From contig MGGH01000017.1 of assembly GCA_001792305.1 (NCBI GenBank), forward strand, positions 1-33,871: DNA of 33,871 nucleotides. The letters run 5' to 3'. This DNA is from Candidatus Woesebacteria bacterium RIFCSPHIGHO2_01_FULL_39_23. GTDB taxonomy: Bacteria; Patescibacteriota; Microgenomatia; UBA8517. The position numbers and the translations under genes were made by a program. Below the pieces are notes generated by a model that did not search any database, had not been told where the DNA came from, and saw only the letters and a program-made list of their open reading frames with translations. Below, piece after piece: positions 1 through 27,744 of this stretch (position 1 is the stretch's first letter; each line of letters begins with the position of its first letter).

Positions 1-655
1 TATGCTCCGGAACCATAAGCCAGGAATAATACCGTCTAAATAGCCACAAATTAAAAGAGTTTGCGTTTGGAATCTCAAAAATAAATTTTCCTTTTGGCTT
101 CAACCAAAGACCTATCTTTTTCATAAATTCAAAAGGATTGGGCACATGCTCTAAAACGTGCCAGGCAGTAATAATATCAAAACTTGACTTAATCTCAACT
201 TCTGTTACCTCACCCACTTTTATTTTTCCTCTCCCTATTCTTTTCTCAGCCCGTTCTGCGGCCACAATACTTTTTTCAACACATTGAACATTCCATCCCT
301 TCTTAAGCATTCTTTCGGCAAATTCACCATTGCCACAACCAATATCTAAAAGAGAGCCCTTGCTGGTGTGTTTCTCCACATACTCATCATACTCCGGGAA
401 AAAGCGAATCGACAAAATAGCGTCCAACAAAGATCTTCCAGTTGGTCTTGCAAGTTTCTCGAAATACTCCTTTTCGGAATATAACGATTCAAGTTGCTTT
501 AAGCTTGGCATGGGGTTTATTCGAATAAGAGTACAAAACTTACATCGTTCATAAAGAAGATTCTTTGCTCCCACTGTCCGGGAATTCTGAAAAACAAAAA
601 GTGGTATAAAAGTATTCGAACCGCAAAGTGGACAAGACATACTGTTCCTCTTCAT
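1..655 (-). CDS. Class I SAM-dependent methyltransferase with N-terminal zinc-ribbon, partial (runs off left edge; absent from ORF track)
   Basis: Manual translation from ATG at 655 gives MKRNSMSCPLCGSNTFIPLF...ERCKFCTLIRINPMPSLKQL...GSLLDIGCGNGEFAERMLKKGWNVQCVEKS...FDIITAWHVLEHVPNPFEFMKKIGLWLKPKGKFIFEIPNANSFNLWLF with no stop to base 1. CxxC...CxxC pair, motif I (LLDIGCGNG) and HVLEHV. Start overlaps upstream gene stop (ATGA). Confidence 0.9.
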   Translation of the reverse strand, partial: MKRNSMSCPLCGSNTFIPLFVFQNSRTVGAKNLLYERCKFCTLIRINPMPSLKQLESLYSEKEYFEKLARPTGRSLLDAILSIRFFPEYDEYVEKHTSKGSLLDIGCGNGEFAERMLKKGWNVQCVEKSIVAAERAEKRIGRGKIKVGEVTEVEIKSSFDIITAWHVLEHVPNPFEFMKKIGLWLKPKGKFIFEIPNANSFNLWLFRRYYSWLMVPEH

Positions 656-1326
656 TTTTGACAAACGGCAAAAACAACAGAATTTACCTCATGCAGCGAA
701 TCTACTTTCGATGCATCGGATCTTGAGGAAGGCATCCACTGGCCGTCTTTTTTTACAAAATATTCAGCAAGCGTCAGTTTGAGGTCACCAAGTAATTGTT
801 TTAAGTGCTTTTCGTCGTATACTCGGTAAGATCTTGTTATTCTCCACTTTCCGTATGGGACTGTGAGAATAAACTTACCTCCAGGTTTTAGTATTCGCAT
901 TATTTCTTCAATCGCCTTTCGATCCCCCTTCAAATCTTTTTTTGTTTTTTCATAAAATCTGAGACCTATGTGCTCTAAAGTAGAGACCGCCACAATACAA
1001 TCGAAAAAATTTTTGTCAAAGTCAGTACTACGAATGTCCCCTGTTATAAACTTCAAGTTTCTGTGACTATACGGATAAGGTTCTATGTCTATTCCGTACG
1101 TTTTGTACCCTAGACTTGCGAGTGTAAGAACCAAGTTGCTGTAGCGGCATCCCACATCAAGTACCACTTTTCTCCCGCCCGGGATGTGTCTAACTACCCA
1201 TGCATACTCAATAATTCGCTCCGAAACTATATCCTGATAAAAAACGTTTCTTATTTCCTCTTTCAAGCCGAATTCCGGCATCCTAGCCACTAAATTAACT
1301 CCAAATTCTAGAATCTTTTTGAACAT
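652..1326 (-). CDS. Class I SAM-dependent methyltransferase
   Basis: VVLDVGCRYSNLVLTLASLGYKTYGIDIEP, CIVAVSTLEHIG, MRILKPGGKFILTVPYG motifs. Confidence 0.9.
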   Translation of the reverse strand: MFKKILEFGVNLVARMPEFGLKEEIRNVFYQDIVSERIIEYAWVVRHIPGGRKVVLDVGCRYSNLVLTLASLGYKTYGIDIEPYPYSHRNLKFITGDIRSTDFDKNFFDCIVAVSTLEHIGLRFYEKTKKDLKGDRKAIEEIMRILKPGGKFILTVPYGKWRITRSYRVYDEKHLKQLLGDLKLTLAEYFVKKDGQWMPSSRSDASKVDSLHEVNSVVFAVCQK

Positions 1327-1431: not shown

Positions 1432-2481
1432 CTACTTAGCAAACACAGTGTGCGCCATATGATGAATCGGAACTGTGTATTTTCTCCACGTCTGAAAAAA
1501 ATTTCCTTTCACCATAATTTTTTTAAAAATATATTTATCGGAATATTTACGATTTGACTGAATTAAAGCTCGCTGGGTTAATAGATATCCCAAATTCGTT
1601 AACACCCAAACCCAGGCTTTCAAAAAACCTAACAATGGGCGAGGGTTTCGGTTTTTTATAAGATGCATTACTGCCCTTAGAAAGTACACAGTTGTAGCAA
1701 AGGGCAAGTACCTAATTAAATTGCTCCATTCGTAATTTTTAATAAAAACAGCAGGCATTTTATTAAAATAATATTCTGCTTTAAGGGTTGATATCGGCCT
1801 TGCAGTTTGAGGCTTACCTCCCCAATGGTAAGTTACAGCTTGAGGAACGCAAACTGACCTAAACCCTGCTATCCAGATTCTCCAACCCAAATCAATGTCG
1901 TCAACTTTGTGCCCTAATTTTTCATCAAATCCGCCAATTTTATCCAGAATGGATTTCCTCACAATTGTACCCACCGAACCAATAACCACATCAACAATCG
2001 AATCATCTGCTTGATTTACCTTAAGGCCATAATTTCTCATCACGACCCACCCTGTATGGGGAATAAGAAGCATCCCGTCGGCTTGGATATATTCTTTTCT
2101 CTTTAAGTCAAAAACTCTGCTGTGACAAGCACCGATTCTTGGATTTTTTTCAAGCACTCTAACCATCTGATTTATCCACAGAGGCGAAGCTTGCATATCC
2201 GTCTCAAAAAAAACAACATACTTTCCCTTGGAATCATTTACCCCCTTATTGCGTGTGATGGAAGGGCCGTTATTTTTTTCGTTATACAAAACCCTCAAAT
2301 TTTTGTATTTTCTAGAAAGACCTAATAACATTTCTCTCGCGCCATCGGTCGACCCATCGTCAACAACAATAATTTCATAAGTAGGGTATCGGGTCGCCAT
2401 TAAAGATTTAAGGCAGGGGTTTATCAGCTCTTTTCTGTTAAAACTGGGGACTACAATCGATACAAGAGGAAAGTTTCTCAT
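1432..2481 (-). CDS. Family 2 glycosyltransferase
   Basis: VSIVVPSFNRKELINPCLKSLMATRYPTYEIIVVDDGSTDG; FFETDMQ; GGFDEKLGHKVDDIDLGWRIWIAGF. Confidence 0.95.
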   Translation of the reverse strand: MRNFPLVSIVVPSFNRKELINPCLKSLMATRYPTYEIIVVDDGSTDGAREMLLGLSRKYKNLRVLYNEKNNGPSITRNKGVNDSKGKYVVFFETDMQASPLWINQMVRVLEKNPRIGACHSRVFDLKRKEYIQADGMLLIPHTGWVVMRNYGLKVNQADDSIVDVVIGSVGTIVRKSILDKIGGFDEKLGHKVDDIDLGWRIWIAGFRSVCVPQAVTYHWGGKPQTARPISTLKAEYYFNKMPAVFIKNYEWSNLIRYLPFATTVYFLRAVMHLIKNRNPRPLLGFLKAWVWVLTNLGYLLTQRALIQSNRKYSDKYIFKKIMVKGNFFQTWRKYTVPIHHMAHTVFAK

Positions 2482-2482
2482 T

Positions 2483-3154
2483 TCAATTGTCCTTCCAGCA
2501 AAACATATAAATTGCCCATTCTGGTTTTAAATTAAGCACTGGCCAAAAAATAAATGACACTAAAGAAAACACATAGCTAAAAGGCCCTAATTTCTTAACC
2601 CTGTTTCCATACCCATAAAGCAGTCTTAAACCTTGTCCCCAAACTTTATAACCTTTTTCTTTGAAGTCTCTGGGGTACCAAGCCGACTTATGCCTCTGAT
2701 ATGGGTTCCCATCATATGGGTCTTGAGGTAACCCGCCCACAGGAATAATAAAAATAATCCTCCTTTTGGCTATTTTCTCCAAGTTATTAATTAGTTTTAA
2801 GCCTTCCTTTTTTGTCAAGTGCTCAATTACTTGTGAACACAAAACAACGTCAAATCTTCCAATACTTTTATCTAAGCTTTTAATGTCTTTTCTTATCAAT
2901 CTTTTATAAATTTTCCTTCCTTTTGCTTTCTCTAAATAAGGACTAAAAACATCAATTCCAGTCGGAATTATCTTTTCTTTGGAATTATTTATAATAAATT
3001 CCATAAAAGCGCCGTCAGCACAGCCAACGTCAAGTATCGTCTTGCCATGACTCCTTAAAAGCCCCATTATTAATCCATAGTGGGTAAAGGGCAAAATTGC
3101 GTATATTGGGGCGAAAAAAGCATCTATCTTTTTAAGTATCGGTCTCCAGTCCAT
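2483..3154 (-). CDS. Class I SAM-dependent methyltransferase
   Basis: TILDVGCADGAFMEFI, FDVVLCSQVIEHLTKKEGLKLINNLEKIAKRRIIFIIPVGG. Confidence 0.9.
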   Translation of the reverse strand: MDWRPILKKIDAFFAPIYAILPFTHYGLIMGLLRSHGKTILDVGCADGAFMEFIINNSKEKIIPTGIDVFSPYLEKAKGRKIYKRLIRKDIKSLDKSIGRFDVVLCSQVIEHLTKKEGLKLINNLEKIAKRRIIFIIPVGGLPQDPYDGNPYQRHKSAWYPRDFKEKGYKVWGQGLRLLYGYGNRVKKLGPFSYVFSLVSFIFWPVLNLKPEWAIYMFCWKDN

Positions 3155-3156
3155 AA

Positions 3157-5037
3157 TTATGTAGTTAACCAGAATTTAGATTCTTTACTGATTTCCGACC
3201 AAATATTTATCATATCCTTATAAGGACCGATATCCATATGCCTCAAATCCTTATCAATAAACCTTCTCATTAAAGCCTTTAAGATAACGAAAGAAATCGA
3301 CTCGGCCAGTAAACCCTTGTTGATTCTTTTGGTATCACAAAAATAATTCCAGATTGACTTCATTATCTTTGAGTAAACTCCAACTCCCTTCAAATTTGTC
3401 TTAAAGTAATCCCAGCTATCCCGTCTACTATTATTAATAATAAAGAAAACAAAATCAAAAAAAGGGTCTTTTTCTTTCTCAAAAAACTCCCAGTCTATAA
3501 CATAAATTTTCTTGCTTATTATTATGTTAGTTTTTACAAAGTCACCGTGACTGGACACTTTCTTTATTTTTGTTTCCCCCATTTTCTTTGCGAACAATTC
3601 CAGATCCGAAGCGACAACATGTTCAACCTTATCTGAAAATTTTTGTGATCTTAAGAAAATCATGGCGCTTGACATCTCTTTCTTAAATGTTCTGGACTCG
3701 ACATAACCACTTTCTGTCTTCATCTGGAAATTCAGTAACCAGTCCACTGCAAGTTTATTGTCTTCCAGACTTCCAGATCTGCAAATATGCCCTTTAAGGT
3801 AGGGTTCAATAAACACATCCCTTTCACCTATCTTTGTCTTTTTGACATCTATCCCATTCCATTTGGCAATTAGAGCTTCCTCCTTAACAAGACTGTCCTG
3901 GAACTGTGAAAAACGGGCAAACTTAACTATACTTTTTGGTTTCCCATTTTCAAGTAAAAAATAGTTTATTTTAGAGGTCAATCCGTGCGTCCCGCTTCTT
4001 CTTAAAAAACTTGTTCGTTTTTTACTTAAACTCAAAACTTGATTTTCAAGCAATTCTTCTTTGTTTCCACCTTCTTTATTTGCGTATATTAAAAAACTTG
4101 GTGCAAATATCGGGAAAAACATTCTTAAAAACGTTGGTCGAAATAGTAAGGCAAGTTTTGTTGCAATTTTGCTGGTTATTGTCACGCTAAAATCATGCAT
4201 TCGCAAAAATTTAAGTAAAAATGAAAAACTCTCCCCATCCATTGGTCCTGCCTCACTCGGACTATTGTAGTTAAGAGTCCAATAAATTTTGAAATTGAAA
4301 AATCCCACCTCTTTCAGGATATTTTGATAACCCCAGTAAGAGTAGGTGTAAGTACGATAATCTGGCCAATCCTTATCCATTCTTTTTATATCTTCATATT
4401 TTCCCCCCGTATTTCTAAACTTTCTAACTAAAACACCCGCTAACTTCCTCGGCATTAAACTTGTAAATGGAAGTCCACTATGATCAATTGCTCCAAAAAA
4501 GAAAAAGAAAGCAAATCTGTTCTCAATTCCGACATATAACACACCCCCAGGTTTTAGTACTCTTTTCACTTCTTTAAGGAACTTTATCTGAAGTTCTTTT
4601 GGATTTTTATTGAAATCCGAAAGACCAACCCATTCTAGTACACCGTTGACTACAACTAAGTCAAAAAAGTTATCCTGAAATGGTAATGTTAACCAGTCGG
4701 ACTGAATAAATTTGATATTTTTTCGACCCTCCTGTTTTGCCCGAACTTTTTGAAACTCAAGGCGCTCTTTTACCAACTCGAGAGAATAAACTTCATCAAA
4801 TTGGTAAGAGAGAGAGATTGAGTTTGCGCCCCATCCGCTACCAATATCCAGCGCCTTTTCCTTCCCCTTCAAATTCAGGCAGTCAAAAAGCCAATCCGCC
4901 CGATCATAAGCCAAAATATACTCGTTTAGCCTATCAACTCCCAAGAAATTGGCAGCATTTTGGTAGCCTACTCTTTTGGCGACTTTAACAATTTCCCGCG
5001 CTTTATCTTGTGAAATTTCTCCCCAGTAATAATTCAT
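3157..5037 (-). CDS. Bifunctional fusion: N-terminal class I SAM methyltransferase + C-terminal APH/choline-kinase-like phosphotransferase domain
   Basis: N-term ALDIGSGWGANSISLSYQFDEVYSLELVKERLEF...VVVNGVLEWVGL...LKPGGVLYVGIENR. C-term SIVKFARF...VKEEALIAKW...SSHGDFVKTNIIISKKIYVIDWEFFEKEKDPFFDFVFFI (HGDxxxxN and DWE catalytic motifs). Confidence 0.85.
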   Translation of the reverse strand: MNYYWGEISQDKAREIVKVAKRVGYQNAANFLGVDRLNEYILAYDRADWLFDCLNLKGKEKALDIGSGWGANSISLSYQFDEVYSLELVKERLEFQKVRAKQEGRKNIKFIQSDWLTLPFQDNFFDLVVVNGVLEWVGLSDFNKNPKELQIKFLKEVKRVLKPGGVLYVGIENRFAFFFFFGAIDHSGLPFTSLMPRKLAGVLVRKFRNTGGKYEDIKRMDKDWPDYRTYTYSYWGYQNILKEVGFFNFKIYWTLNYNSPSEAGPMDGESFSFLLKFLRMHDFSVTITSKIATKLALLFRPTFLRMFFPIFAPSFLIYANKEGGNKEELLENQVLSLSKKRTSFLRRSGTHGLTSKINYFLLENGKPKSIVKFARFSQFQDSLVKEEALIAKWNGIDVKKTKIGERDVFIEPYLKGHICRSGSLEDNKLAVDWLLNFQMKTESGYVESRTFKKEMSSAMIFLRSQKFSDKVEHVVASDLELFAKKMGETKIKKVSSHGDFVKTNIIISKKIYVIDWEFFEKEKDPFFDFVFFIINNSRRDSWDYFKTNLKGVGVYSKIMKSIWNYFCDTKRINKGLLAESISFVILKALMRRFIDKDLRHMDIGPYKDMINIWSEISKESKFWLTT

Positions 5038-6032
5038 TGGTAATACCTTCTGTAAATATTTACAAGACTTTCCTTTGTCATAACCTTCTCATAAATGTAG
5101 TCATCACTGACAACTCTTAAAGATTGTACAAATTTTCTCTGCTTTAATGTATCTCGGAAATTGACGATATTCCATTTTACCGCTTTAATAAATTGAATTA
5201 ATGCGCTAAATTCTTTATCTCGAACCGCCACAAAAATACCCCTTCCAAACACAATCAAAAAAGCTATTGGTAAATATTTGATTAAACTTTTTAGTTCATA
5301 ATTTTTAATTAAAGTCCTGAAAGTATTTTTATTTATATGAAAATATACAAAACTTTTCGTTGCATTCATCAATCTCGCTCGCTCTTCGTAACCTTTAAAC
5401 TTATGATAAACGACAGAATCAGGAACATATATTATTTTCCATCCCCCAATCCAAATCCTCCATGAAAAATCCAAGTCCTCGGTATGAACAGCTAGCTTTT
5501 CGTCAAATCCACCAATTTTTTCAATTACTTCTTTTCTCACAACCATACAGGCGGATATTGAAACCACTTCGCGCGTCTTTTCTCCTTTTAAGGCAATACC
5601 CCAACCTGTATGGGGAATCAAAAAAAGTCCTGCTGTAGTTATCCTGCTTTTATCTTGAAGCATCGGCATCTTGGGACAGGTCGCACCCACACTTATATTT
5701 TCAAAAGGCTTCAAGAGCTCGCCAAGCCACCCCGGCTTAACTTCTGTATCGTTATCCAAAAAAACAACTATTTCACCCTTAGCTTTTTTAATAGCACGAT
5801 TTCTGCTCGCCGCAGCCCCGATATTTACTTTGTTTCTCAAAAAGTTAATATTCTTACTTTTTTTTATATATGATTTAATTATTTTTATACTTCCGTCACT
5901 CGATACGTCATCAACTAATATAATTTCAAATTTCTTATACTTAGTCTTCAAAAGGCTGGACAAACAAAGAGGCAAATACTTTTCACCGTTATAATTTGGG
6001 ATAATAATAGAAACCAGTGGTGTTTTATTCAT
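5034..6032 (-). CDS. Family 2 glycosyltransferase
   Basis: VSIIIPNYNGEKYLPLCLSSLLKTKYKKFEIILVDDVSSDGS; FLDNDTEV; GGFDEKLAVHTEDLDFSWRIWIGGW. Related to the 1432-2481 product. Confidence 0.95.
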   Translation of the reverse strand: MNKTPLVSIIIPNYNGEKYLPLCLSSLLKTKYKKFEIILVDDVSSDGSIKIIKSYIKKSKNINFLRNKVNIGAAASRNRAIKKAKGEIVVFLDNDTEVKPGWLGELLKPFENISVGATCPKMPMLQDKSRITTAGLFLIPHTGWGIALKGEKTREVVSISACMVVRKEVIEKIGGFDEKLAVHTEDLDFSWRIWIGGWKIIYVPDSVVYHKFKGYEERARLMNATKSFVYFHINKNTFRTLIKNYELKSLIKYLPIAFLIVFGRGIFVAVRDKEFSALIQFIKAVKWNIVNFRDTLKQRKFVQSLRVVSDDYIYEKVMTKESLVNIYRRYYQ

Positions 6033-6675
6033 TAAAATCTTTCACAGCAACTAAGTAGCCACCTATTTGGGGGACAAAATACGAAATCGGGGTGAGAATA
6101 TATTGTAAAGCAAAATAAAACTTTACCTGCCAGAGAGCTCTCGGCGGATAGACCCTGGCACCAAAACCATAAACTCTATAACCGAAACGCTTAAAATCAT
6201 TTACTCCCCACAGTGAATGGTGTGAATCGCTTTTGACAAACTCCGGTTGACCATGTTTCATCATATTCGGACAGACAATAATTGCCCGACCCCGGCAAAT
6301 CTTATCTAGATCGTTCAAAAATTTTTCTCCACTTTTTTTAGTAAGATGAGATATCACTTCCACTGCTAGAATTAAGTCTACACTTGACTTGACAAAGGGC
6401 ATTTTATCTAAACTCGCAACCACATACTCGTCGTAGACGCGGTTTTTTTTAGCAATTGTTAGATATTCCTTGGAAATATCGACACCTATCATTTTTGTTT
6501 TTGACATATCCCTTGTTGCCCTAAGCAAAAACCCATATATCCCTTTTCCACAACCAACATCAACAATAACTTTAGCGAATAAATCATGAGGAATAAAATT
6601 AAATACAACGGGGTGGTGAAAAAAAGGTGATATTCCCGCCCACTTAAACTTATTTTCTTTTGAACTACTATTCAT
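6025..6675 (-). CDS. Class I SAM-dependent methyltransferase
   Basis: VIVDVGCGKGIYGFLLRATRDMSKTKMIGVDIS, LILAVEVISHLTKKSGEKFLNDLDKICRGRAIIVCPN. Paralogous to the 2483-3154 product. Confidence 0.88.
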   Translation of the reverse strand: MNSSSKENKFKWAGISPFFHHPVVFNFIPHDLFAKVIVDVGCGKGIYGFLLRATRDMSKTKMIGVDISKEYLTIAKKNRVYDEYVVASLDKMPFVKSSVDLILAVEVISHLTKKSGEKFLNDLDKICRGRAIIVCPNMMKHGQPEFVKSDSHHSLWGVNDFKRFGYRVYGFGARVYPPRALWQVKFYFALQYILTPISYFVPQIGGYLVAVKDFNE

Positions 6676-6701
6676 TTACGTTTCCTACAAAACCAAACTT
6701 G

Positions 6702-7625
6702 TTAAGTCACCCTGATGGTATCCATTCTCACACGTCGCCTTTCTTTTGTATTAACTAGTATAAATCCATCCAGGGTCCCTTTCAAAAACTTTAAATACCC
6801 AGATAAATGTCCGTATTTTACAGCCAAATACAAATAATAGATTAAATAAAGGGGTAAAAAAAGCGAAAAAATAAAGAAGTTTTTTCCGAATCTTTTCATA
6901 AAAATTATCCTGTTTTTGCCTAAATTCTTGGCATACCTGACCAGAAGCCTTTCCGCGTCTTTTTGGGTGTTATATTCTATATCGTGATACGCAATTGCAT
7001 CTGGGGTATAAAAAGTTTTAAAACCTGCCCTTTTTGCTCTATAACAAAAATCGGCATCTTCCCAAGAAGACTCGAAAATATTGTCAAATCCTCCTATTTT
7101 TTCAACCAATTCTCTTTTAACCAGAATTGCAGCTGGAGAGACCCCTACTTCGACAGTTTTATTATACTGCCCCACATCCATTCCGTTTCGAAACATTACC
7201 TGTCCTGTCCATAAATTTATATCGGTACCGGCAGACCAAATTCTTTTTCTCTCACTCTTGTAATAAATCTTGGGAGTTACTATACCTATTTTATTATCTG
7301 CAACTTTCACCAAGTTTTCCAGCATTTTTTTATCAGCAATCATATCGTGGTCAAAAAAAAGTAGATAATCACTTTCCTTATCAGAAGCCTCTATTCCTTT
7401 ATTTCTTCCTCCGGTTACTCCCAAATTTTTTTCATTTTTAACTAACCTAATTGTCTTGTACTTCTTGACCAGACGATCAACTTCATCGGCAGTATCATCC
7501 GTTGATGCATTATCAACAACAATTATTTCGAAAGGCTTATAGGTCTGGTTACTTAAGGATTTAATACAACCGACGATGGTAGAGCACCCATTCCAAGTTG
7601 GCACGATTACTGTTATCCTCTTCAT
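6702..7625 (-). CDS. Family 2 glycosyltransferase
   Basis: ITVIVPTWNGCSTIVGCIKSLSNQTYKPFEIIVVDNASTDDT; LLFFDHDM; GGFDNIFESSWEDADFCYRAKRAGFK. Confidence 0.95.
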   Translation of the reverse strand: MKRITVIVPTWNGCSTIVGCIKSLSNQTYKPFEIIVVDNASTDDTADEVDRLVKKYKTIRLVKNEKNLGVTGGRNKGIEASDKESDYLLFFDHDMIADKKMLENLVKVADNKIGIVTPKIYYKSERKRIWSAGTDINLWTGQVMFRNGMDVGQYNKTVEVGVSPAAILVKRELVEKIGGFDNIFESSWEDADFCYRAKRAGFKTFYTPDAIAYHDIEYNTQKDAERLLVRYAKNLGKNRIIFMKRFGKNFFIFSLFLPLYLIYYLYLAVKYGHLSGYLKFLKGTLDGFILVNTKERRRVRMDTIRVT

Positions 7626-7644
7626 GCTTTGTTAGTATAAATAA

Positions 7645-9966
7645 GTGGAAACATTAACTTTCATTTTAGACTCTTCGAACTTCCCACACTATTTTAAGAT
7701 ATTTGCAGTTCTAATCATAATTAGCTTTGGTGGGATAGCTGTATTTTCACTTATTTACAATACCAAAAATAAATTTATCATTGTAGGTGGTGGATCGATA
7801 CTGGGTTTTTTGATTTTTCTTTTATTACTAGGGAGTTTTTCTTACTTTTTTAAAGGCGAAATTGGAGTAAGAATAATTTTTTTACTGTATATCCTAATTT
7901 CTACTTTTGCGTTTACCCGAAACAAAAACTTTTACAGACATCTATTTAACCTGAAGTTAAGTATTAGTTCTATATTAATAATTGGGTCCGTTTTTGTAAA
8001 CCTATCTCTCCTATTTCTATTTATAAGAGACGTTATTTTAGGGTCCAGTGCTCCTCTTTACTGGGGAGTTGCGCTGTCATTTGCCAAAGGGAATTACCCA
8101 ACTGTGCTCCCGTGGCAACCAGAATCTATCACTGCCTACCACCAAGGTTCACTGATGGTAATGGGTGCAATGCAGAGCTTAACTAATATCCACATTTCAA
8201 TCATTCATAGTTTCCTGTCATTTTACTTAATATCCTCTATTTTTCTGTTCCTGACAGAGGTTGCCCGTGAAAAAACTCGTTCTTTATTTTGTCTCCTACC
8301 AGGACTCACAGCAACTGTATTAATCGGCGGACCGATAATATTTTATGGAAATGCTGCCAAATTTGCACAAACAGTTATTAATTTTCCACTTTTAACGCCT
8401 TACGCTTGGCAACAAGCAAATTATTTTCTTGATTACTCAAGCTTTTCGCTTTGGCTTGGAACTGGAGTAACTAGCCTACACACATTGGTTTATAATATTT
8501 ATCATTCATCGGCTTGGGCAGCTTTTTTATTTTTTATTTATGCACTGGTCTTTCGCTGGAAGAAAAATTCATTGCAGGATTACGCTTTCTTTACGACTCT
8601 CTCGGTATTAACCCTTTCCCTTGAGGAAACGTTGTTTATCCTCAGGTAATCATTCTCACCATTGTATTTGTTTATAAAAATAAAAATATTAAACAATTTC
8701 TCCGTAGAGGAGTATTTCTATTAATATTATTTCTTATCTTATTCTTACTAATACAAAATTCTGTGCGTGATTCGCTTTTGTCACCCTCACACCAAATGTC
8801 AAGATTTCGATTAGCTGATGTCAGTGAATTTTATACCAGTGCCCCATTTTCATACCTTACGGGTTCTTCTAAACAGACTAATCTGGGTTTATGGTTTCTC
8901 CCTAACTTTCTGATGTTAGCAATTACTACCTTTTTATTTTTCGTTCGCGGCAAAGTCAGTCATACTAAAGTATCTAATTGTATCTTCAACGATAAGCGCA
9001 ATATCATCCCTACTTATTATAGAAACTTTTTTTTCGACAAATAGTGTCCGTTTCGCAAACTACGCATATCAAATTATTTTTCTAGCTTTAGTTTTTGCAT
9101 TGATAGAGTTATTAATAAACAAGAGAAAACTATACAGACTGCTTGGTTTCATAACTATAATTACAGTTTTTTGCCCACAATTAGTTGCTACCCATCTTCA
9201 GTTTACAAACAGGGCAATTTTTAACCAGTGCGACACTTTAACAGATTATTTTAAGGTAGATTACCCTGCTTTTAGGTGGTTTACAAATAATATTCCTTAC
9301 GACAAACGCGTAGTTATAATTGATGAATATCCTTTCGATAAACCCAGTCTTACACCAGCCGCCATTGAGTCTTATGGTTTGTTTGTCCCAACCTCCCCTC
9401 TCGGATATAAAGTTCATTTACCCGAAACAGGATTGGAGTGGTTTGACGCGATAACAACATTAAACCCTTCAATCCTCAAAAAACTAAAAATTGATTATAT
9501 ATTCATTAAAAATGGTGAAGAAAAGCGCTTTAGCGAAGTTCGACAATTACAGTTTAAAGACCCTTCCCTCTTTATCCCAAAATATACTGATACTTTAGGA
9601 ACACTTTTTGAAGTAAACGACACATTTAAACAAAAGGCGGATGATGTAAATACAATTGAGAATATTATTCAGGAAATACCCGACAACTCCGATGTCTACA
9701 TTGGTTTGTTCAAAGCTCGGGAGATAAGGAGAGGTGCAGCCCTAGAATTAAAACGGAGAGTAACTCTGTATGGTCCTGCTTTTGCAGATCCGTATGTTGA
9801 CTGGTTTGTAAAAATCGAAACTTCAATGCCCCAACTTAAGGATACAACTGCCAAGGTCAAATACTTTCTATTGGATAAGACGACTCTCCCGGCCATTTTT
9901 ACCGACAAAAGGGTAGTGAAAATGATAGATAACGACTTTACGGTCTTGTGGAAAACACTAGATTAA
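7645..9966 (+). pseudogene. Large multi-TM GT-C-like membrane protein, split into three ORFs by two compensating frameshifts (7645-8649, frame spanning 8763-9044, and 9100-9966)
   Basis: Reading frame 1 to about 8637. Frame 3 from about 8637 to about 8950 (...YPQVIILTIVFVYKNKNIKQFLRRGVFLLILFLILFLLIQNSVRDSLLS...LPNFLMLAITTFLFFVRGK). Back to frame 1 from about 8950 (SVILKYLIVSSTISAISSLLIIETFFSTNSVRFANYAYQIIFLALVFALIELLINK...). Hydrophobic N-terminal two-thirds and soluble C-terminal domain (YPAFRWFTNNIPYDKRVVIIDEYP...LKIDYIFIKNGEE). Confidence 0.75.
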
Positions 9967-11168
9967 GAAGTAATTTCAGAGATAACTTCTCGAGCGCGCT
10001 TATCCCAAGACCAATCTTTTTGTATCATGTCTCTACCTTCTTTCCCAAGTTTCAGTCTTAGCTTTTCGTTGTTCAAAAGTTTCAGAATAGACTCTGAAAA
10101 TCCTTCCAAATTTCCAACTGGGACTTTCAACATGCCCTTTGGATAGTATGATTTGTAAGACTTTAGATCAAAACCCACTGCAGGCAAACCAAAGGCCATT
10201 GCTTCAGCTGAGGCCATACCTCCCGAGTCATAAAAAGCCGGATGGACAACAACTTTACTCTGTGTAAAAATCCTATACTTTTCTGGACCATCATACAAAT
10301 ACCCAAAAATCCTGACATTCCTTTCCAATTTATTACTTTTTATTTTTGAGATTACATCATTCATTAGCTCCCCGTCTCCTATCATCGCAAGAACGGCGTT
10401 GTTTCTCTCCCTAACAACCTTGGCCCAAATATCGATTAGCTCGGTAACACCTTTTTGGGGATGAAAACGACCCTGAAAAACTGCATCGTATTTGGGTTCT
10501 TCGTCTCGCAGTGTCTGGTTTTGCTTAAGGTATTTTTTAATATTATCCAAATCTACTGCTCCCAAGACGACAACAACTTTACCAATATTATCTAATTCAC
10601 TAAACTGTTTTTTTTCTTCAATGTTATTAACTAAAACGAAGTCAGCAAACCGTAAGATCAACGGCTTTGAAACCATTTGTGAAAGCCAATAAAAAAGAGC
10701 AGTCAACCTGTAGGCTTTATCTCTTTTACCCTCTCTAAAACCTATGAATGGGCTTGGAGCTGTTTGGTACCAACCGGCTACCCACTTAACTTTACCTCTA
10801 AATCTAGCTTTAAGTAAGAAGGCCGGAAGCAAATCCATTAAGAAATCAGAGCAGGAGTAAACAATAACAAACTTTGGAAGGGTTATTTTCAAACCCAAAA
10901 TAATACCGGCTAAAATTCTGGCAATATAATTAACTAAAAAGCCAAATTTCGGCCAGATGCCCATGTTAATAATTTCAAACTTAATGTTTTTGTGCTGAAG
11001 TTTTTGCGCTTGAGTGATGTTATATCCCTCTTCCCAAAGATGAATATAAATTTTATTCCCCCATTTGACCCAGCGCCTAGCAAATTCTATGAATATCCTA
11101 TCTCCTCCAGAAAGCCCCACCCCAACAGCAGCAAGTGCAAAAAAATGAAATGTCGGTTTATTATTCAT
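9963..11168 (-). CDS. Glycosyltransferase family 4 (GT-B)
   Basis: N-term GVGLSGGDRIFIEFARRW; PKYDAVFQGRFHPQKGVTELIDIWAKV; SKVVVHPAFYDSGGMASAEAMAFGLPAVGFD. Confidence 0.92.
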   Translation of the reverse strand: MNNKPTFHFFALAAVGVGLSGGDRIFIEFARRWVKWGNKIYIHLWEEGYNITQAQKLQHKNIKFEIINMGIWPKFGFLVNYIARILAGIILGLKITLPKFVIVYSCSDFLMDLLPAFLLKARFRGKVKWVAGWYQTAPSPFIGFREGKRDKAYRLTALFYWLSQMVSKPLILRFADFVLVNNIEEKKQFSELDNIGKVVVVLGAVDLDNIKKYLKQNQTLRDEEPKYDAVFQGRFHPQKGVTELIDIWAKVVRERNNAVLAMIGDGELMNDVISKIKSNKLERNVRIFGYLYDGPEKYRIFTQSKVVVHPAFYDSGGMASAEAMAFGLPAVGFDLKSYKSYYPKGMLKVPVGNLEGFSESILKLLNNEKLRLKLGKEGRDMIQKDWSWDKRAREVISEITS

Positions 11169-12454
11169 GAATTATTCACTAATTCGGCAACTTTCTCTCC
11201 TAATTCTACCGCATAATTTGTACCGCGATCGTGAGGATATACTTGCTGAATGTTTGCCAGAAACACTCCTTTAACAGGAGTCGTCATTGGTGGAATTTTC
11301 AGTGAATAATTTGTTGTTATAACCGGCTGGGCAAAAGCAGTTTTAAATACCCAGTATTTATTTATTATTGATCTTTCAAATTTTTTGTTTATTCTTTTAA
11401 GATAGGGTATAAATATTTTTAATAATTCTTCCCCGTTCTTTAAAAAATAGTCGTGGTCATGAGACAAATAGTTTCCTATATAGAGTAAGTGTTCTCCATT
11501 GTAAAATTCACTATCCATATAGTTTGTATGCTCAACCAAAGCCAGAAATGGATAACTTCTGTCATTTATATTCAACCAGTAAGTGTTGTCTTTAAAGAAC
11601 TTTTTCTTTAGTGACAAAATTAAATTTACTGCACCCAGTCCCGGTAAACCTGAATATTTATTTCTATAACTTTCTGGAATTCCGTAAGTCATTTTTATAA
11701 AGGTGGATGTTGGAAGTGTACATATTACTTTGTCAAAATAGTACTTTTTAGCAACATCCATTACAACCACTATTTTGCCGTTTATTTTTCTTAGCGATTT
11801 AACATCTGTATTGTAATAAAACCTCGCACCAAAAGTCTTGGATTTTGACTCAATTTTTTGGGCAAAATTTAAAAATCCCCCCACTGGGTAGACAAGAGAA
11901 GAAGTCCTCTTCGAAATTCTGGACCAAAACCAAGAAGCACAAATCAGTTCCGAATATTTGCCAAATTTTCCTTTAAAAAGCGGCTCCCATAAAACCTTCC
12001 AGGAAGCGTTACCCATAACTTTTTTTATGAAATTACTTGCCGTAGTTTTCTCAAACAGCTTCCAAAAAGGATTAAAACGAAGTAACGCTATCCCAACACC
12101 AGTTCTAATTCTACCTAAAAATGATAGTGGGCGAAACTTCAGAAGACTCACGGGTGAATCCGTTTGATAAATAACACGGTCGAAAAAAGTCGATGTTTTT
12201 GGCCTCTTTGTAATTACTCTATGATTTAACTTTTTAGCAAGATTGATTACATGAGTATCGTTAGTGAACCAATGATGATAATGCTGCTCCAATGTCCACC
12301 TCCAATTTTCTCTCTTAAATCCACCAGCAAGCCCACCGGGACTGCTTTCTTTTTCTAATAAAATTACTTCATACCCCTTTTCAGCAAGATTTAGAGCTGC
12401 GCAAAGCCCTACAAACCCTGCACCGATAATTCCTACTTTTATTCCCATGGCCAA
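11165..12454 (-). CDS. FAD-dependent oxidoreductase (amine oxidase / protoporphyrinogen oxidase-like)
   Basis: KVGIIGAGFVGLCAALNLAEKGYEVILLEKESSPGGLAGGF dinucleotide-binding motif; C-term GVFLANIQQVYPHDRGTNYAVELGEKVAELV. Confidence 0.88.
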   Translation of the reverse strand: MAMGIKVGIIGAGFVGLCAALNLAEKGYEVILLEKESSPGGLAGGFKRENWRWTLEQHYHHWFTNDTHVINLAKKLNHRVITKRPKTSTFFDRVIYQTDSPVSLLKFRPLSFLGRIRTGVGIALLRFNPFWKLFEKTTASNFIKKVMGNASWKVLWEPLFKGKFGKYSELICASWFWSRISKRTSSLVYPVGGFLNFAQKIESKSKTFGARFYYNTDVKSLRKINGKIVVVMDVAKKYYFDKVICTLPTSTFIKMTYGIPESYRNKYSGLPGLGAVNLILSLKKKFFKDNTYWLNINDRSYPFLALVEHTNYMDSEFYNGEHLLYIGNYLSHDHDYFLKNGEELLKIFIPYLKRINKKFERSIINKYWVFKTAFAQPVITTNYSLKIPPMTTPVKGVFLANIQQVYPHDRGTNYAVELGEKVAELVNNS

Positions 12455-14487
12455 ACTTTAAGAATCAAGTCAATACTAAAATCTCCTACTTCTTCTACCA
12501 ACCAACCATTAGAAAATCCATTTACAACAAAGTGGTTCAGAACTTGCTTCTTATCTATCCAGGCTTTCCAAAGGTCGCTATAAGTGTTTGCCAAAATCAG
12601 AATGAAATTTCCCTTCGACCCAGTTACTGAGACTTTGTAATTCATGGGGTTTATTTTTTCAAAACTAATATTGGGCGTCCAGTTACTAAGTTTCTCATTG
12701 CTTTCCGTAACCACAAAACTTAAGGGTTCAAAGTCGCTATTTAATATCTCCCTCATCACACCGCTGGGATCCTCTACAACTATTACCTTTGACACAGCAT
12801 AAATACGAGGTACAACTTTGCTTTTATCCAAAGAGTAAATTCTAACTAACCCTATCTCTTTTTCAAATTTCAGATCGCGCCAATTTTTAATATTTTGTTC
12901 AGTTATATCCATTCCTGCCTCATTTGCCCAAGATTCATCTATATCTTTATGAAAAATAACATTTGACACACCCGCTACATACAAGATATTACTAAAATTC
13001 TCTTGGTCCAGATAAAGCTTTAATCCCAGATAAAAATCATCAAAGTAACGCGAGGTTCGAAGTGACTTAGATATAGACTCCCTATTAAAGATAAACTCGG
13101 ATGGTTCCAAACCTCGATACCCCCAACTGTAGCGAATCCCATCACCGTTTAAAAAAGGCAGATGAAATAACCTTTCACTCCCAAGGCTATTCAAATATTC
13201 ATTCGCTGACTTATAATAATCTGGCACCTCGATCTTTACCGAGCCACTTATGAACTTGCCCGTCCAAAAAGGCCAAACAAGTACAAATGCAATAACTAGC
13301 AAAACTTTCGCTAATATCTTCGACAATCTACCTCGGTTAGACAAATAAAAATATCCTAAAGCAAAAAAAATTGAATACGGGATTAGAATAATAAGCCCAA
13401 ATTTTTCAAACGGGTTCCTAAAAACTCCCATAAAAGGAAAAATGTTAAACAGAACTGAAAAGAACTCTTTACCAAAAGGCAGATTTAGTCCTTTAATGAA
13501 AAATAGCGATACTAAAAGTATAAATAGCAAATATTTGTGAGTTTTAACTTTTCTGCTGACCAAAATACCCAAAATTACAACTGACAAAACAGTTAAACTC
13601 AAAATCAAATATTTCACTTCCCCATAAAAGCTCCACAAAGAACCCAAGTTATCTCCAAAATAACCTTCACGCAAAAAAATAATACTATCGAACTTGAAAA
13701 ATTTACTTAAGCCACCCAAAACAGAGATACTATCATACGGAGTAGCTTGTTTTGAAAACGACTCCGAACTTAAAGTTATGTAAGGAATAATCCACCAAAA
13801 ATGAAAAACCGCCCAAATAAATCCGCTTAGAAAAAACGAGAATATTTTTTTAATGACATTCTTTACTTTAAATATTTCATGGAGAAAAAATACTGCTGAA
13901 GGAAACCATATGGTAATAATATACGATGGAGCACCGTATGCCATGGGTATTATTAATGACACGAAAGACGCAGCCAAAGCGTACTTGATACGACTTTCGC
14001 GAATAAACTTTACTTGAAAATAAGTAAATAAGGGCAGAATCGCCCAACCTGCAATCTGGGTATACAAAAATCTTCCCCATATCTGAATCAGACTATATAA
14101 ATTAAAAACATAAAAAACAGCCGCCACGCCGTACAAAGCATTGCTATTAAAGTTATGTCCAAGAAGTTCTTTACTAAGAAAGTAAAATCCAATTAACCCA
14201 AGAACTAAAAAGAAACATAGTAAAATTGCCTGAGTTACCCAATTAATTATACCAAGATTAATAAATACTCCAGCTAAAGTGTAAAACGACACCCTTGGAA
14301 GATTAACTGGCAACAAGTATCCAGTGCCTGTTTCCAACCAAGCTGAAGAGTACAGAGACTGGGTTCTAGTCGGCTCGTATAAGGTTATACCCTCTTCTCC
14401 CGTCGCCATCATTTTTCCATCCTTAAACCAGATAAAAACCAAAAATATCGCGACACTAAGATATAGAAGTAACACTCGTTTACTCAT
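12439..14487 (-). CDS. Large multi-TM protein, probable GT-C-type glycosyltransferase (AftD/YfhO-like)
   Basis: About 11-12 hydrophobic segments after an extracytoplasmic loop MMATGEEGITLYEPTRTQSLYSSAWLETGTGYLLPVNLPR; large soluble C-terminal domain ending TYSDLWKAWIDKKQVLNHFVVNGFSNGWLV. Confidence 0.7.
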   Translation of the reverse strand: MSKRVLLLYLSVAIFLVFIWFKDGKMMATGEEGITLYEPTRTQSLYSSAWLETGTGYLLPVNLPRVSFYTLAGVFINLGIINWVTQAILLCFFLVLGLIGFYFLSKELLGHNFNSNALYGVAAVFYVFNLYSLIQIWGRFLYTQIAGWAILPLFTYFQVKFIRESRIKYALAASFVSLIIPMAYGAPSYIITIWFPSAVFFLHEIFKVKNVIKKIFSFFLSGFIWAVFHFWWIIPYITLSSESFSKQATPYDSISVLGGLSKFFKFDSIIFLREGYFGDNLGSLWSFYGEVKYLILSLTVLSVVILGILVSRKVKTHKYLLFILLVSLFFIKGLNLPFGKEFFSVLFNIFPFMGVFRNPFEKFGLIILIPYSIFFALGYFYLSNRGRLSKILAKVLLVIAFVLVWPFWTGKFISGSVKIEVPDYYKSANEYLNSLGSERLFHLPFLNGDGIRYSWGYRGLEPSEFIFNRESISKSLRTSRYFDDFYLGLKLYLDQENFSNILYVAGVSNVIFHKDIDESWANEAGMDITEQNIKNWRDLKFEKEIGLVRIYSLDKSKVVPRIYAVSKVIVVEDPSGVMREILNSDFEPLSFVVTESNEKLSNWTPNISFEKINPMNYKVSVTGSKGNFILILANTYSDLWKAWIDKKQVLNHFVVNGFSNGWLVEEVGDFSIDLILKVWPWE

Positions 14488-15530: not shown

Positions 15531-16894
15531 TGTTCCCTCCAGTAAATTCTGGCAACTGAGTATTTATTCTCAATCGAGTATTTGCTCTCCATTAAGAATT
15601 CCAAAAACCATTTTTCTTCCTGTCCCCCATAGGTAATCATAACTTTAGGCTTTTTCGAAAGTCCCTTTATCAGCACTTCTAATTGCCCAGGAATTAACGT
15701 GCCAAAGGTATTTAGGTGGCGAGATGTAGAATTTCGGTTCGAATAAAACAAAATCTCAGGCTCATCGATCCAAAGAAAAATCAAATCTTTCTCTGAAGTT
15801 CTTTTCTTGATTTCAAAACCAATTTCCCTCCCTTCATATGCATATCTGACCGTACTTCCAAAAGTTTTGGTATAAGCGTTTCTTGGGTCTATAAACCATA
15901 AATATCCCCACAGGATTAAAAAAACAAGCATGTTGACAAAAAATATTTTAGGAGCTAGCTTTTCTTTCCAAAACACACCAAAAATCAAAATACCAGCAGA
16001 TATTATCGGGAAATAATAATGTAACACATCTCGACTTGTGAGTTTTGCGCCAATCCAATAAGCAGTCAGCCACAACAAAAAGATAATTCTTTGTTTATTA
16101 AGCTTCTTTCTATATACAAATCCTAAAACTAAGGCAGAAACAAGCAACATGTTCATAAGCAAATTACCCCGAGTAACAATACCAACCAGTCCGACTTTGT
16201 CAATCACACTTTCTATTCCGGAAATTACGTAGCTAAGGTTAAAAACCACAACAGATTCCCAAAATACACTCCAAACACCACGAAGATAGAAATACATAAA
16301 AACTGCAGCAACGGGTACAACTACCCCTACTACAAATTTAACAAAGGCTAAAAATTTACTTTTTAAAAAAAATAATGATATGACTAAGACTCCGATGTTT
16401 GTGAAAGCAACAGGTTTAATTAAAAATGATAATCCAGCCAAAACCCCAGCCAAGAAATATAATTTTTTCTGGATAATGAGTAATAGTGATAACACCAGAA
16501 ATGTAACCATAAACATTTCTGTATTGGCAACCAGTCCCTCTAAAACGAATGAATTTGCCATCAACATATAAAAGCTAACTAAAAGAAATTTCTTTTTAAC
16601 CTTAACTATTTCTAAAATCTTTATGATAATTAAAGTTGAAGCAACAGAGTTTATAAACGAGAGTGTCCTTACACTAAGTTCAGATTCCCCAAAAATTTGA
16701 AAGCCAACCCAGTACAGTAAATGAATACCAGGAGGCTTGTGATCGAAAGCGTCTTTATAAAGCACGAAATCGCTGTCAAAAAATCGAGTCGCCATGTAAG
16801 CATATGCACCCTCGTCTCGGTTTAATGGCAACTCCCACGATTGCCATCGCAGTATTAAACTAAAAAAAGAAATAATTAAAATCTTTTTAAGCAC
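15527..16894 (-). CDS. GT39/ArnT-like dolichyl-phosphate-mannose-protein mannosyltransferase family membrane glycosyltransferase
   Basis: LPLNRDEGAYAYMATRFFDSDFVLYKDAFDHKPPGIHLLYWVGFQIFGESELSVRTLSFINS, the classic first loop of the PMT/ArnT family, followed by multiple TM segments. Confidence 0.9.
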   Translation of the reverse strand: MLKKILIISFFSLILRWQSWELPLNRDEGAYAYMATRFFDSDFVLYKDAFDHKPPGIHLLYWVGFQIFGESELSVRTLSFINSVASTLIIIKILEIVKVKKKFLLVSFYMLMANSFVLEGLVANTEMFMVTFLVLSLLLIIQKKLYFLAGVLAGLSFLIKPVAFTNIGVLVISLFFLKSKFLAFVKFVVGVVVPVAAVFMYFYLRGVWSVFWESVVVFNLSYVISGIESVIDKVGLVGIVTRGNLLMNMLLVSALVLGFVYRKKLNKQRIIFLLWLTAYWIGAKLTSRDVLHYYFPIISAGILIFGVFWKEKLAPKIFFVNMLVFLILWGYLWFIDPRNAYTKTFGSTVRYAYEGREIGFEIKKRTSEKDLIFLWIDEPEILFYSNRNSTSRHLNTFGTLIPGQLEVLIKGLSKKPKVMITYGGQEEKWFLEFLMESKYSIENKYSVARIYWREQ

Positions 16895-17726
16895 GTTGCT
16901 TTATAGCCACAAGTGAGATTCCAACAGTGGATGTGTCGAGATTGAATTCTCTATCGTTCAATCGGTCAATGAAGTTAACAGCTTTTAAAAAAAGATGGTA
17001 TAAATCGCGATTTCCGCCATTATCTGAGGAAAACTTACTTAAAGACTTAGTTACACTTCCAGGAAGTGTTTTGGACTTTCTGATTCTGTATCCCAGATTC
17101 AAAAGAAAGTGATTAAATGGTAATCCATAATGGGTAAGTACTTTCACTTCTTCCACTTTCAGCCCAGATTTTTTGACTGTTTGGATTAAACCTTCAGGCG
17201 TATAAAGTCTTATATGCTGATTCCAAACCCCCGCCCAAAAACCGTCTTTTATGTGGGTACCAAAAACCTTTTCCAAAATAAAGCTCACCGGGTCCCACAA
17301 AAAAGGATAATTATGAGATGGAACTGTTATCGTCAAAACTCCGCCTTTTTTAAGAACGCGCTTAAATTCTCTCAAACCCCCGACATCGTCCGGTAAATGC
17401 TCCAACACTTCGCTGCAAATTATCTTGTCGAATATGTCGTCTTCAAAAGGCATATTCATTACACTACCTTCAACTAATTTCAGTTTTTTGCTCTTAACAT
17501 AACTTTTGGCCAAATCCAAAGCCTTCGGATTATCATCCAAGCCAACAAGGCGAGCGCTACAAAGTTTTGACAATAAATGAAGATAAAACCCATCGCCACA
17601 ACCGGCGTCTAATACGGTTTCGTTTTTTTGGGGAGATAAAGACACCACAATTTCTCTAGCTCTTCTTTTAAGACACATATCCCCAGTATTGGAAAGTAGA
17701 TCTTCAAGTGTTTTTGTGTTAATCAT
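16887..17726 (-). CDS. Class I SAM-dependent methyltransferase
   Basis: TVLDAGCGDGFYLHLLSKLCSARLVGLDDN; DKIICSEVLEHLPDDVGGLREFKRVLKKGGVLTITVPSHNYPFLWDP. Confidence 0.92.
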   Translation of the reverse strand: MINTKTLEDLLSNTGDMCLKRRAREIVVSLSPQKNETVLDAGCGDGFYLHLLSKLCSARLVGLDDNPKALDLAKSYVKSKKLKLVEGSVMNMPFEDDIFDKIICSEVLEHLPDDVGGLREFKRVLKKGGVLTITVPSHNYPFLWDPVSFILEKVFGTHIKDGFWAGVWNQHIRLYTPEGLIQTVKKSGLKVEEVKVLTHYGLPFNHFLLNLGYRIRKSKTLPGSVTKSLSKFSSDNGGNRDLYHLFLKAVNFIDRLNDREFNLDTSTVGISLVAIKQRA

Positions 17727-25687: not shown

Positions 25688-26474
25688 GATTATTGTTCAA
25701 AGTAAGATATTTCGGCGTAATCCAATTTTTACGATTTTTGTTATCATAATAATGAAGTATCTTAAGCCTGTAAAAAACTGCTGCGGTATCCCAAAGCATA
25801 CTAAAAACTGTAGAAGCGAATCCTTTTGTTAAAATCGTCGAATTCTTAAAATCCATTTTGGACTCTATCGGTGCTTCATAAATACGCTTAAAACCAAGGT
25901 AGTTGGCAACAGCCAGTAATTCAATATCAAACGCAAACTGTTTAACCAATACCCTCGGCAATACTTTTTCCAGCACTTCCCGCCTAAAAAATTTTATTCC
26001 GACCTGAGTATCTCTAACTTTTAAACCGAACAACAATTTTACCAACATCTGGTATACAAACGATATTAATGCACGAAATTTAGTGTAATGCACTTTTGAC
26101 ACGGGATGCCTCTTAGAACCAACAATTATATCTGCGTCATACCACTCAAAATGCGAAAGTAACATCTGAATACCAACTGGGTTTATATCCATACCAGCGT
26201 CCATAAATCCCACTATGTCACCTTTGGCCTTTGCCATGCCAAACTTGACTGCGTACCCTTTTCCCAAATTGTTTTTATACCCGACAACTCTTATTTTAAC
26301 TGGAAATTTCGAAGCTACATTGCGCGCTTTATTTAAAGATTTGTCCGTACTTCCGTCGTCAACGCATATTATTTCGTAATCAATAGATAAGCTATCCAAA
26401 ACCTCCTTAATTTTAAGAAGAGATTTTCCTATAAATTTCTCTGCTCTATAAGATGGAATTACGACGGATACCAT
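25680..26474 (-). CDS. Family 2 glycosyltransferase, DPM1/polyprenyl-phosphate glycosyltransferase-like (ORF extends to 26498; likely start at MVSVVIPSYR, 26474)
   Basis: MVSVVIPSYRAEKFIGKSLLKIKEVLDSLSIDYEIICVDDGSTDKSL; NLGKGYAVKFGMAKAKGDIVGFMDAGMDI; VRDTQVGIKFFRREV. Confidence 0.92.
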   Translation of the reverse strand: MVSVVIPSYRAEKFIGKSLLKIKEVLDSLSIDYEIICVDDGSTDKSLNKARNVASKFPVKIRVVGYKNNLGKGYAVKFGMAKAKGDIVGFMDAGMDINPVGIQMLLSHFEWYDADIIVGSKRHPVSKVHYTKFRALISFVYQMLVKLLFGLKVRDTQVGIKFFRREVLEKVLPRVLVKQFAFDIELLAVANYLGFKRIYEAPIESKMDFKNSTILTKGFASTVFSMLWDTAAVFYRLKILHYYDNKNRKNWITPKYLTLNNNHV

Positions 26475-27744
26475 AAATAAAGTATGACAAATAAGCAACT
26501 AGCAAAAATATAGCACAAAAAACAGATACTTTAATAACCGAATCTAGCGAATCATGAAAAAATAAAATTCCAACCACCTGCATTGCCGACGCCGTTGCTA
26601 GAAAAATCACGGTTTTTGTCCTCCCTATTGAAAAAAAGAAGCTACCAAGTAAGCCTGACAATGTAAAAACCGACATCGACAAACCAAATAAACCAATAAG
26701 TGGCGCTGCTCCTATAAATTCATCACCGTAAAGTATTTCAATAGCAAATTTGGGAAAGATAAAATAGATAGCTAATACACCAAAGGCTATTACCGAGGTT
26801 ATCATAAAACTGTAAAACAATACGCGTTTATATCCTTCTTTGCGTGCAAATTTACGAGCAATAATTGGGAACATTACAGCCCCAACAGGACCGGTCCCAA
26901 AAAATATAATTTTTGCTAAATTTGCTGCAGCCGCATAGAGTCCTGCGCTGTGCGGCGCAAAGTAATGCTTTACCAAAATTACATCCGTAGATATAAATGA
27001 GGTCATGGCAGCAGCTTGAATCAGGACAGGTATCCCGTAAAAAATAATATCTTTCTGATTTTTAAAATTCGCAAGTTTTTTGCCTCGCAAATATTTGGGT
27101 AAGAACGGAAAAGTAGCAAGCCATCCGACGATAACCGATATAAGTATTCCACCAATCGCTCCAAATACAGAAAAACCCAAAAAGACTAGAACTAAAGCTG
27201 ATATTAATCTTACCACCAACTCTACATTTAAAGTAATCACTTGTTCTTTAAATTTGAGCAAACCCTGCAAGAATGATCTATTCAAAAAGCCTATTAACGA
27301 AAAAAATACTATCGGTGCTGTTAGTGTAACTGACAGAACATCCACTCTAAGGAAATTTGAAAATAATGGAGATAAAAACAAAATAACCACCCCAAATGCC
27401 AATCCTAAAAATATCGATCTATTTCTTGCCCAGTAATAAAAGATCCTATTTTGTTTATTTGTATTTGTTGAAGCAAACTTTACTATAGCAAGACCCAGTG
27501 ATGTATAAGTTACCGATACCAATCCCAAAAATGAGATGATCGATGACACTTCGGCAAATTTTTCAGTTCCAAGTATTCTCCCTATTACCAAATGAAATAA
27601 GTAAGCAAAAAAATTTGCCAAATTACTCCCAAACATCATAACAGCACTACCCGAAAAAATCGGGTTTAAAATAATTGAAGAAGCAAATGCGCCAACTATC
27701 GGCAACTTACCAAAAACTCTAGATACTCTTTTCATGAAACCCAA
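26446..27744 (-). CDS. Oligosaccharide/lipopolysaccharide flippase (MATE/Wzx superfamily)
   Basis: FGSNLANFFAYLFHLVIGRILGTEKFAEVSSIISFLGLVSVTYTSLGLAIVKFAS; multiple TM segments; PHSAGLYAAAANLAKIIFFGTGPVGAVMFPIIARK. Confidence 0.9.
   Translation of the reverse strand: MGFMKRVSRVFGKLPIVGAFASSIILNPIFSGSAVMMFGSNLANFFAYLFHLVIGRILGTEKFAEVSSIISFLGLVSVTYTSLGLAIVKFASTNTNKQNRIFYYWARNRSIFLGLAFGVVILFLSPLFSNFLRVDVLSVTLTAPIVFFSLIGFLNRSFLQGLLKFKEQVITLNVELVVRLISALVLVFLGFSVFGAIGGILISVIVGWLATFPFLPKYLRGKKLANFKNQKDIIFYGIPVLIQAAAMTSFISTDVILVKHYFAPHSAGLYAAAANLAKIIFFGTGPVGAVMFPIIARKFARKEGYKRVLFYSFMITSVIAFGVLAIYFIFPKFAIEILYGDEFIGAAPLIGLFGLSMSVFTLSGLLGSFFFSIGRTKTVIFLATASAMQVVGILFFHDSLDSVIKVSVFCAIFLLVAYLSYFIYGIRRNSIL

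Follow-up and report, generated by a model that had tools for sequence, protein, structure and literature searches.

To our knowledge, methylphosphate capping is known as the signal that stops the growth of ABC-exported O antigens, and it always comes with a coiled-coil ruler. In WbdD of Escherichia coli O8/O9a (Klebsiella O5/O3; PDB 4AZS; PMC3482155), an N-terminal class I methyltransferase and a kinase resembling eukaryotic protein kinases form one polypeptide encoded in a glycan locus, with about 250 C-terminal residues of coiled-coil and recruitment region and an ABC partner (Wzm-Wzt) for export. Biochemistry has proven ORF6 of Klebsiella pneumoniae O7 to be a terminator as well: the methyltransferase and kinase of its N-terminal half place first a phosphate and then a methyl group at O3 of the terminal rhamnose. 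The kinase, previously unannotated, resembles the aminoglycoside-kinase-fold AmiN and needs D441 for catalysis; ORF6 further contains a carbohydrate-binding module, a coiled coil and two GT2 modules, and works with an ABC exporter (PMC11231755). A coiled-coil ruler is present in all characterised terminators of this kind (PMC11231755). Two further methyltransferase-kinase families, Lcin_0519 and Lani_1194/NoeA, were described by bioinformatics in 2022, Lcin_0519 lying beside Wzt/Wzm and a glycosyltransferase (PMC9758233).

Here we compare with these systems a methyltransferase-kinase fusion (MT-APH) from a Woesebacteria-like CPR bacterium, whose draft genome measures 850 kb in 37 contigs and is 92% complete. 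The window is the whole stretch of DNA analysed, 33,871 nucleotides long. The 626-aa open reading frame of the preliminary description exists exactly as given there; it reads on the minus strand, which that description left unstated, and the plus strand across 3157-5037 is full of stops (Table 1). Since its start overlaps the stop of the GT2 gene upstream by 4 bases and only 2 bases separate it from the next methyltransferase gene downstream, the gene probably belongs to an operon. The sister genome, Candidatus Woesebacteria RIFCSPHIGHO2_02_FULL_42_20, encodes an ortholog (L004) with 87% identity over the whole fusion, and this recurrence in an independent assembly rules out an assembly chimera. 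Between the two orthologs dN/dS is 0.08 for the methyltransferase half and 0.16 for the kinase half, values pointing to purifying selection on both halves.

For most of the window's genes the sister genome has orthologs in synteny (63-90% identity), a stretch that runs to near 25.7 kb; the flippase genes are placed differently in the two, one being present in each locus. Five further class I methyltransferases, all without a kinase, are interleaved with GT2 genes (four in Table 1, the fifth at 16887-17726), and the glycan of the locus is therefore probably heavily methylated. A Wzx/PST-type flippase without a recognised ABC exporter, as the preliminary description had it, is indeed what the window holds; moreover, Wzt_C (PF14524) was found neither in the source genome, at its 92% completeness, nor in the sister genome or CPR relatives, and no polymerase was recognised within the window. 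The AftD-like protein of the locus is an arabinofuranosyltransferase homolog, and a second relative of 1150 aa is encoded beside the MT-APH region of the sister genome (L103:5772-9224). On the plus strand, 7645-9966 is the broken counterpart of an intact sister gene (L104:1064-3187; 707 aa, no Pfam match): its pieces match in shifting frames (7645-8523, 8754-8939 and 8938-9963, with ORFs of 334 and 288 aa), and it appears to be a membrane-protein gene that is frameshifted or mis-assembled. Two other proteins have no Pfam match: one of 637 aa (21952-23865) has a counterpart in the sister genome at 76%, while a membrane protein of 385 aa (27732-28889) has no match there.

Table 1. Features of the MT-APH gene and its locus, in window coordinates.
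Feature	Position	Strand	Basis
MT-APH fusion gene, 626 aa	3157..5037	minus	ORF list, translation, Pfam; 87% ortholog L004
Class I methyltransferase domain, residues about 1-322, with family-specific C-terminal half	4072..5037	minus	Pfam, profile homology, model
SAM motif I, DIGSGWG, residues 64-70	4828..4848	minus	translation
Family signature IENR...DHSGLPF, residues 171-191 (E172, N173, R174, H186)	4465..4527	minus	alignment
APH/choline-kinase-fold domain, residues about 341-626	3160..4017	minus	profile comparison, predicted fold, PDB profile match
Putative beta3 lysine K372	3922..3924	minus	invariant in family alignment
Catalytic loop HGDFVKTN, residues 497-504	3526..3549	minus	translation, alignment
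Metal-binding DWE, residues 515-517	3487..3495	minus	translation, alignment
GT2 glycosyltransferase, upstream of MT-APH	5034..6032	minus	stop overlaps MT-APH start by 4 bases
Separate methyltransferase, downstream of MT-APH, 2-base gap	2483..3154	minus	
GT2 glycosyltransferase	1432..2481	minus	
Separate methyltransferase	6025..6675	minus	
Separate methyltransferase	652..1326	minus	
Separate methyltransferase, truncated by window end	2..664	minus	
AftD-like GT-C membrane glycosyltransferase, same locus	12439..14487	minus	GT-C_AftD 1.5e-14
Wzx/PST-type flippase, candidate exporter	26446..27744	minus	Polysacc_synt 3.7e-19

The methyltransferase domain is a complete class I SAM type, as first described, with motif I (LDIGSGWG) and the Rossmann core both present (Pfam Methyltransf_11, E=7.2e-19, residues 63-169). 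The core of the METHYLTRANSFERASE half is modelled well, pLDDT being mostly 80-94 at residues 60-170, and the domain extends to about residue 322. Its C-terminal part bears a signature common to relatives in other phyla, IENR...DHSGLPFTSLMPR...YRTYTYS, in which the residues of IENR...DHSGLPF are kept across nearly all family members, and the ENR and DH are conserved also in a Wzt-linked type of relative (see below). WbdD chains are not among the best 60 of the 252 PDB matches of the methyltransferase profile. Searches of phage and plasmid records returned generic methyltransferase cores only, and a scan of viral contigs gave no match. A Klebsiella record (H19) proved to be an unrelated small methyltransferase.

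For the kinase half, single-protein searches against Pfam, NCBIfam and the PDB did not settle the matter, the Pfam APH match of the window protein alone being sub-threshold (14.7 bits against a cut-off of 23.2, E=0.026). The cut-off is passed by kinase partners of methyltransferase homologs, with E=3.2e-10 in the fused L106 and APH matches of 1.1e-12, 2.3e-9 and 3e-5 in the adjacent partner kinases of L080, L079 and L075, and profile comparison of the window kinase half with such partner kinases gave a probability of 96.7% (E=4.6e-10). Because a full-length AlphaFold model (mean pLDDT 55) left this half unresolved, it was modelled alone, yielding a model of moderate confidence (pLDDT 67.5, pTM 0.68) in which strands, alpha-C helix and catalytic loop follow in the expected order. 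The model matches the folds of APH(4)-Ia, LicA and other APH/choline kinases (E=2.6e-7, probability 1.00, TM about 0.5), the best solved relatives spanning E values of about 1e-6 to 1e-7. Its 50 best fold matches all belong to small-molecule kinases, namely APH, choline and homoserine kinases and their kin; neither WbdD nor HipA, the other folds proposed for comparison, occurs among them. Furthermore, the family profile has the choline kinase LicA as its best PDB match (E=1e-6), and no WbdD chain (4AZS-4AZW) is present among the 37 PDB hits that it has with E no greater than 10.

Given the agreement of partner kinases, profile comparison, fold model and LicA match, we assign the kinase half, on profile and model evidence, to the APH/choline-kinase superfamily, with its fold, HGDxxxxN loop, D-W/F-x metal motif and putative beta3 lysine. 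The motifs are read in translation as SHGDFVKTN (496-504), VIDWE (513-517) and DPFFDF (524-529); K372, H497, G498, D515 and D528 are invariant in a nine-member family alignment, and D499 and N504 are intact in the window protein and its ortholog, so that the catalytic and nucleotide residues on which the first reading hinged are all present. The fold and the HGDxxxxN and D-W-E motifs are common to APH(4)-Ia and LicA; the window kinase differs from them in its link to a methyltransferase, by fusion or by gene arrangement, and shares only about 10-16% sequence identity with them. By its locus context it is no resistance gene.

Some family kinases have altered catalytic loops, HGHYGAEN in L080:2405-3481 and HGDLQPGH in L089:550-2391, and have possibly lost their activity, judging from these motifs. 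Such losses (HGH and HGDxxxxH), like the weak Pfam score, would suit a kinase half that is a non-catalytic binding module, yet with every catalytic residue intact in the window protein and its ortholog and a kinase dN/dS of 0.16, this is barely credible. Another pathway is brought to mind by the LicA match: a LicA-like kinase and a phosphoethanolamine-methyltransferase-like domain could together supply phosphocholine or a similar small-molecule head group to a glycan, and phosphoethanolamine N-methyltransferases do rank among the top matches of the methyltransferase half, by profile and by fold. These matches, however, span the common SAM core alone, and no LicC- or LicD-like gene was found among the window proteins scanned, leaving this pathway quite improbable.

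The domain order recalls WbdD, as first pointed out, and the chemistry is expected to be alike. On sequence and model evidence the protein nevertheless falls outside the WbdD family: no WbdD chain stands among the PDB matches given above, its kinase is of APH/choline-kinase rather than eukaryotic-protein-kinase type, no room is left for a coiled-coil ruler or recruitment region in the 98 residues after D528, which are modelled as helices of the kinase C-lobe, and the genome lacks Wzt_C, the locus having a flippase instead. The different, APH-type kinase of the first reading is not new in such an enzyme, being preceded by the APH-like one of Klebsiella O7 ORF6 (PMC11231755), in which the methyltransferase is likewise followed by an aminoglycoside-kinase-like domain. 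The window protein and its locus are without the coiled coil, fused GT2 modules and ABC context of ORF6. The 2022 families share the conserved methyltransferase-kinase pairing; Lcin_0519 is said to be without helix alpha-C, whereas this helix is predicted in the window kinase (model residues 49-66), and in Lani_1194 the kinase apparently comes first and has R38 in place of the beta3 lysine, whereas the window protein begins with the methyltransferase (PMC9758233).

Across about 1,800 genome look-ups, covering CPR, Chloroflexota, Bacillota, Pseudomonadota and others, the module of methyltransferase then kinase proved rare and patchy, and searching 374 genomes from the window's class with the kinase alone returned the two orthologs of the window and sister genomes and nothing else. 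It is fused in these two, in another CPR class (L106) and in Pseudomonadota (L089), and takes the form of overlapping or abutting genes in CPR (L075), Chloroflexota (L079 and L080) and Pseudomonadota (L100 and L101), the methyltransferase always first. The methyltransferase tree, with its inner branches open, implies at least four changes between the fused and the split state and is compatible with a single origin of the fusion or with several. Neighbourhoods are mostly glycan loci, those of the split homologs included: L106 directly adjoins a Polysacc_synt (Wzx-type) flippase (6.7e-16), with GT4s and a UDP-GlcNAc 2-epimerase around it; L075 adjoins a GT4, with a sugar transferase and a flippase nearby; L079 directly follows a Drr-like ABC-2 permease and ATPase, with a sugar transferase nearby; and L080 lies in the vicinity of GT2s. 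L100 is found near a nucleotidyltransferase, a PEP mutase and a CDP-alcohol transferase, neighbours that may point to a glycan decorated with phosphonate or phospho-alcohol groups. The exception is the fused L089, which has dnaK-like and other housekeeping neighbours and no clear glycan locus.

The recurrence of this pairing in constant order, fused or adjacent, in CPR, Chloroflexota and Pseudomonadota argues that the two activities belong together. They could still serve independent decorations, the methyltransferase making an O-methyl sugar and the kinase phosphorylating another position or sugar, with the fusion merely coupling the two. This would be in keeping with the abundance of ordinary methyltransferases in the locus and with the residues at one site: the WbdD methyltransferase requires the His pair H132/H133 for its activity, a pair apparently not kept in the window family, where E135-W136 seem to occupy its position (by motif alignment, not structure). 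With one methyltransferase subfamily strictly paired in a fixed order across phyla, and with the proven relative ORF6 methylating a phosphate, we nonetheless hold independent decoration to be unlikely.

Relatives of a sister type (L076, L078, L081, L083, L090, L108 and L109) combine a methyltransferase with a kinase of divergent motifs (D..P.N ... DxEW), a coiled coil or additional domains being frequent among them, and the genes of L076 and L078 follow a Wzt with a C-terminal extension. In profile comparison the methyltransferase halves of the window type and this Wzt-linked type are homologous along their whole length, over 282 columns (probability 100, E 1.5e-39), whereas the kinase halves align at the catalytic loop alone (probability 54%, E 1.3e-4). 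By its residue positions, L078 is likely an ORF6-type protein: its Y33, Y71, G96, G98, E117 and D441 correspond in position, not by sequence alignment, to Y28, Y66, G91, G93, E112 and D441 of ORF6. At the corresponding motifs the window protein has Y40, G66, G68, E87 and D499, its canonical HGD motif contrasting with the DxxPxN loop of the probable ORF6 homologs. A bridge between the window family and the ABC-type terminators is provided by L102 (Bacillota, 5712-10566), where Wzm, Wzt (Wzt_C 2.3e-29), a methyltransferase and a weakly APH-like kinase stand in a row and the methyltransferase nests in the window family's 100/100 group on the methyltransferase tree.

That related modules accompany Wzm-Wzt (L102, L076 and L078), and that chemistry and domain order are as in WbdD and ORF6, would fit a true terminator in the sense of WbdD, whose methylphosphate cap stops polymerisation and sets chain length with a different exporter. 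The window protein, though, ends in modelled C-lobe helices where the characterised terminators all have their ruler, no Wzt_C was found in its own or the sister genome, and the window has no recognised polymerase; ruler and Wzt carbohydrate-binding domain are both integral to the known terminators, and we regard such a terminator as unlikely. The cap-and-stop role suggested in the preliminary description is thus divided, its stopping part losing ground on these counts. Its capping part stays plausible by analogy: two domains paired in conserved order, together with a relative of proven chemistry, make it plausible that the window protein works like WbdD as chemistry, adding phosphate and then methyl to a glycan.

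Our preferred reading, to which we give a probability of roughly one half, is that kinase and methyltransferase together furnish a lipid-linked glycan with a methylphosphate, length control not being required. The enzyme would sit at the cytoplasmic face and modify a sugar in two steps. Its C-terminal APH-fold kinase would phosphorylate a sugar hydroxyl, most likely on the residue added last, at the non-reducing end of a glycan carried by undecaprenyl or a similar lipid; the N-terminal SAM-dependent methyltransferase would next methylate that phosphate, forming a methylphosphate cap, and the Wzx-type flippase would then flip the capped oligosaccharide. A shared site for the two activities, a lipid-linked glycan as substrate and a kinase step ahead of the methyltransferase step are what we infer. 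The five kinase-less methyltransferases suggest that ordinary sugar O-methylation is already covered, which makes the kinase-paired one the natural candidate for phosphate methylation. In a flippase pathway such a cap need not regulate length, and may perhaps decorate the end of an oligosaccharide that is short and lipid-linked. We advance more tentatively, as possible rather than probable, the wider proposal that a stand-alone MT-APH module, exchanged between phyla in fused form or as two genes, caps Wzx-pathway glycans with methylphosphate without any ruler.

What is new here is that a compact variant lacking the ruler occurs in loci of the flippase type, those of CPR bacteria included. A module of this kind in flippase-type loci of several phyla would part the chemistry of the cap from chain-length control. 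It would also offer a concrete, assayable prediction, modification dependent on ATP and then on SAM with a 31P NMR signature, for proteins annotated merely as 'methyltransferase' or 'aminoglycoside phosphotransferase'. If the wider proposal is true, methylphosphate capping would not be confined to ABC-transporter pathways, and CPR bacteria, a group with uncharacterised surface glycans, would have their first example of such a cap.
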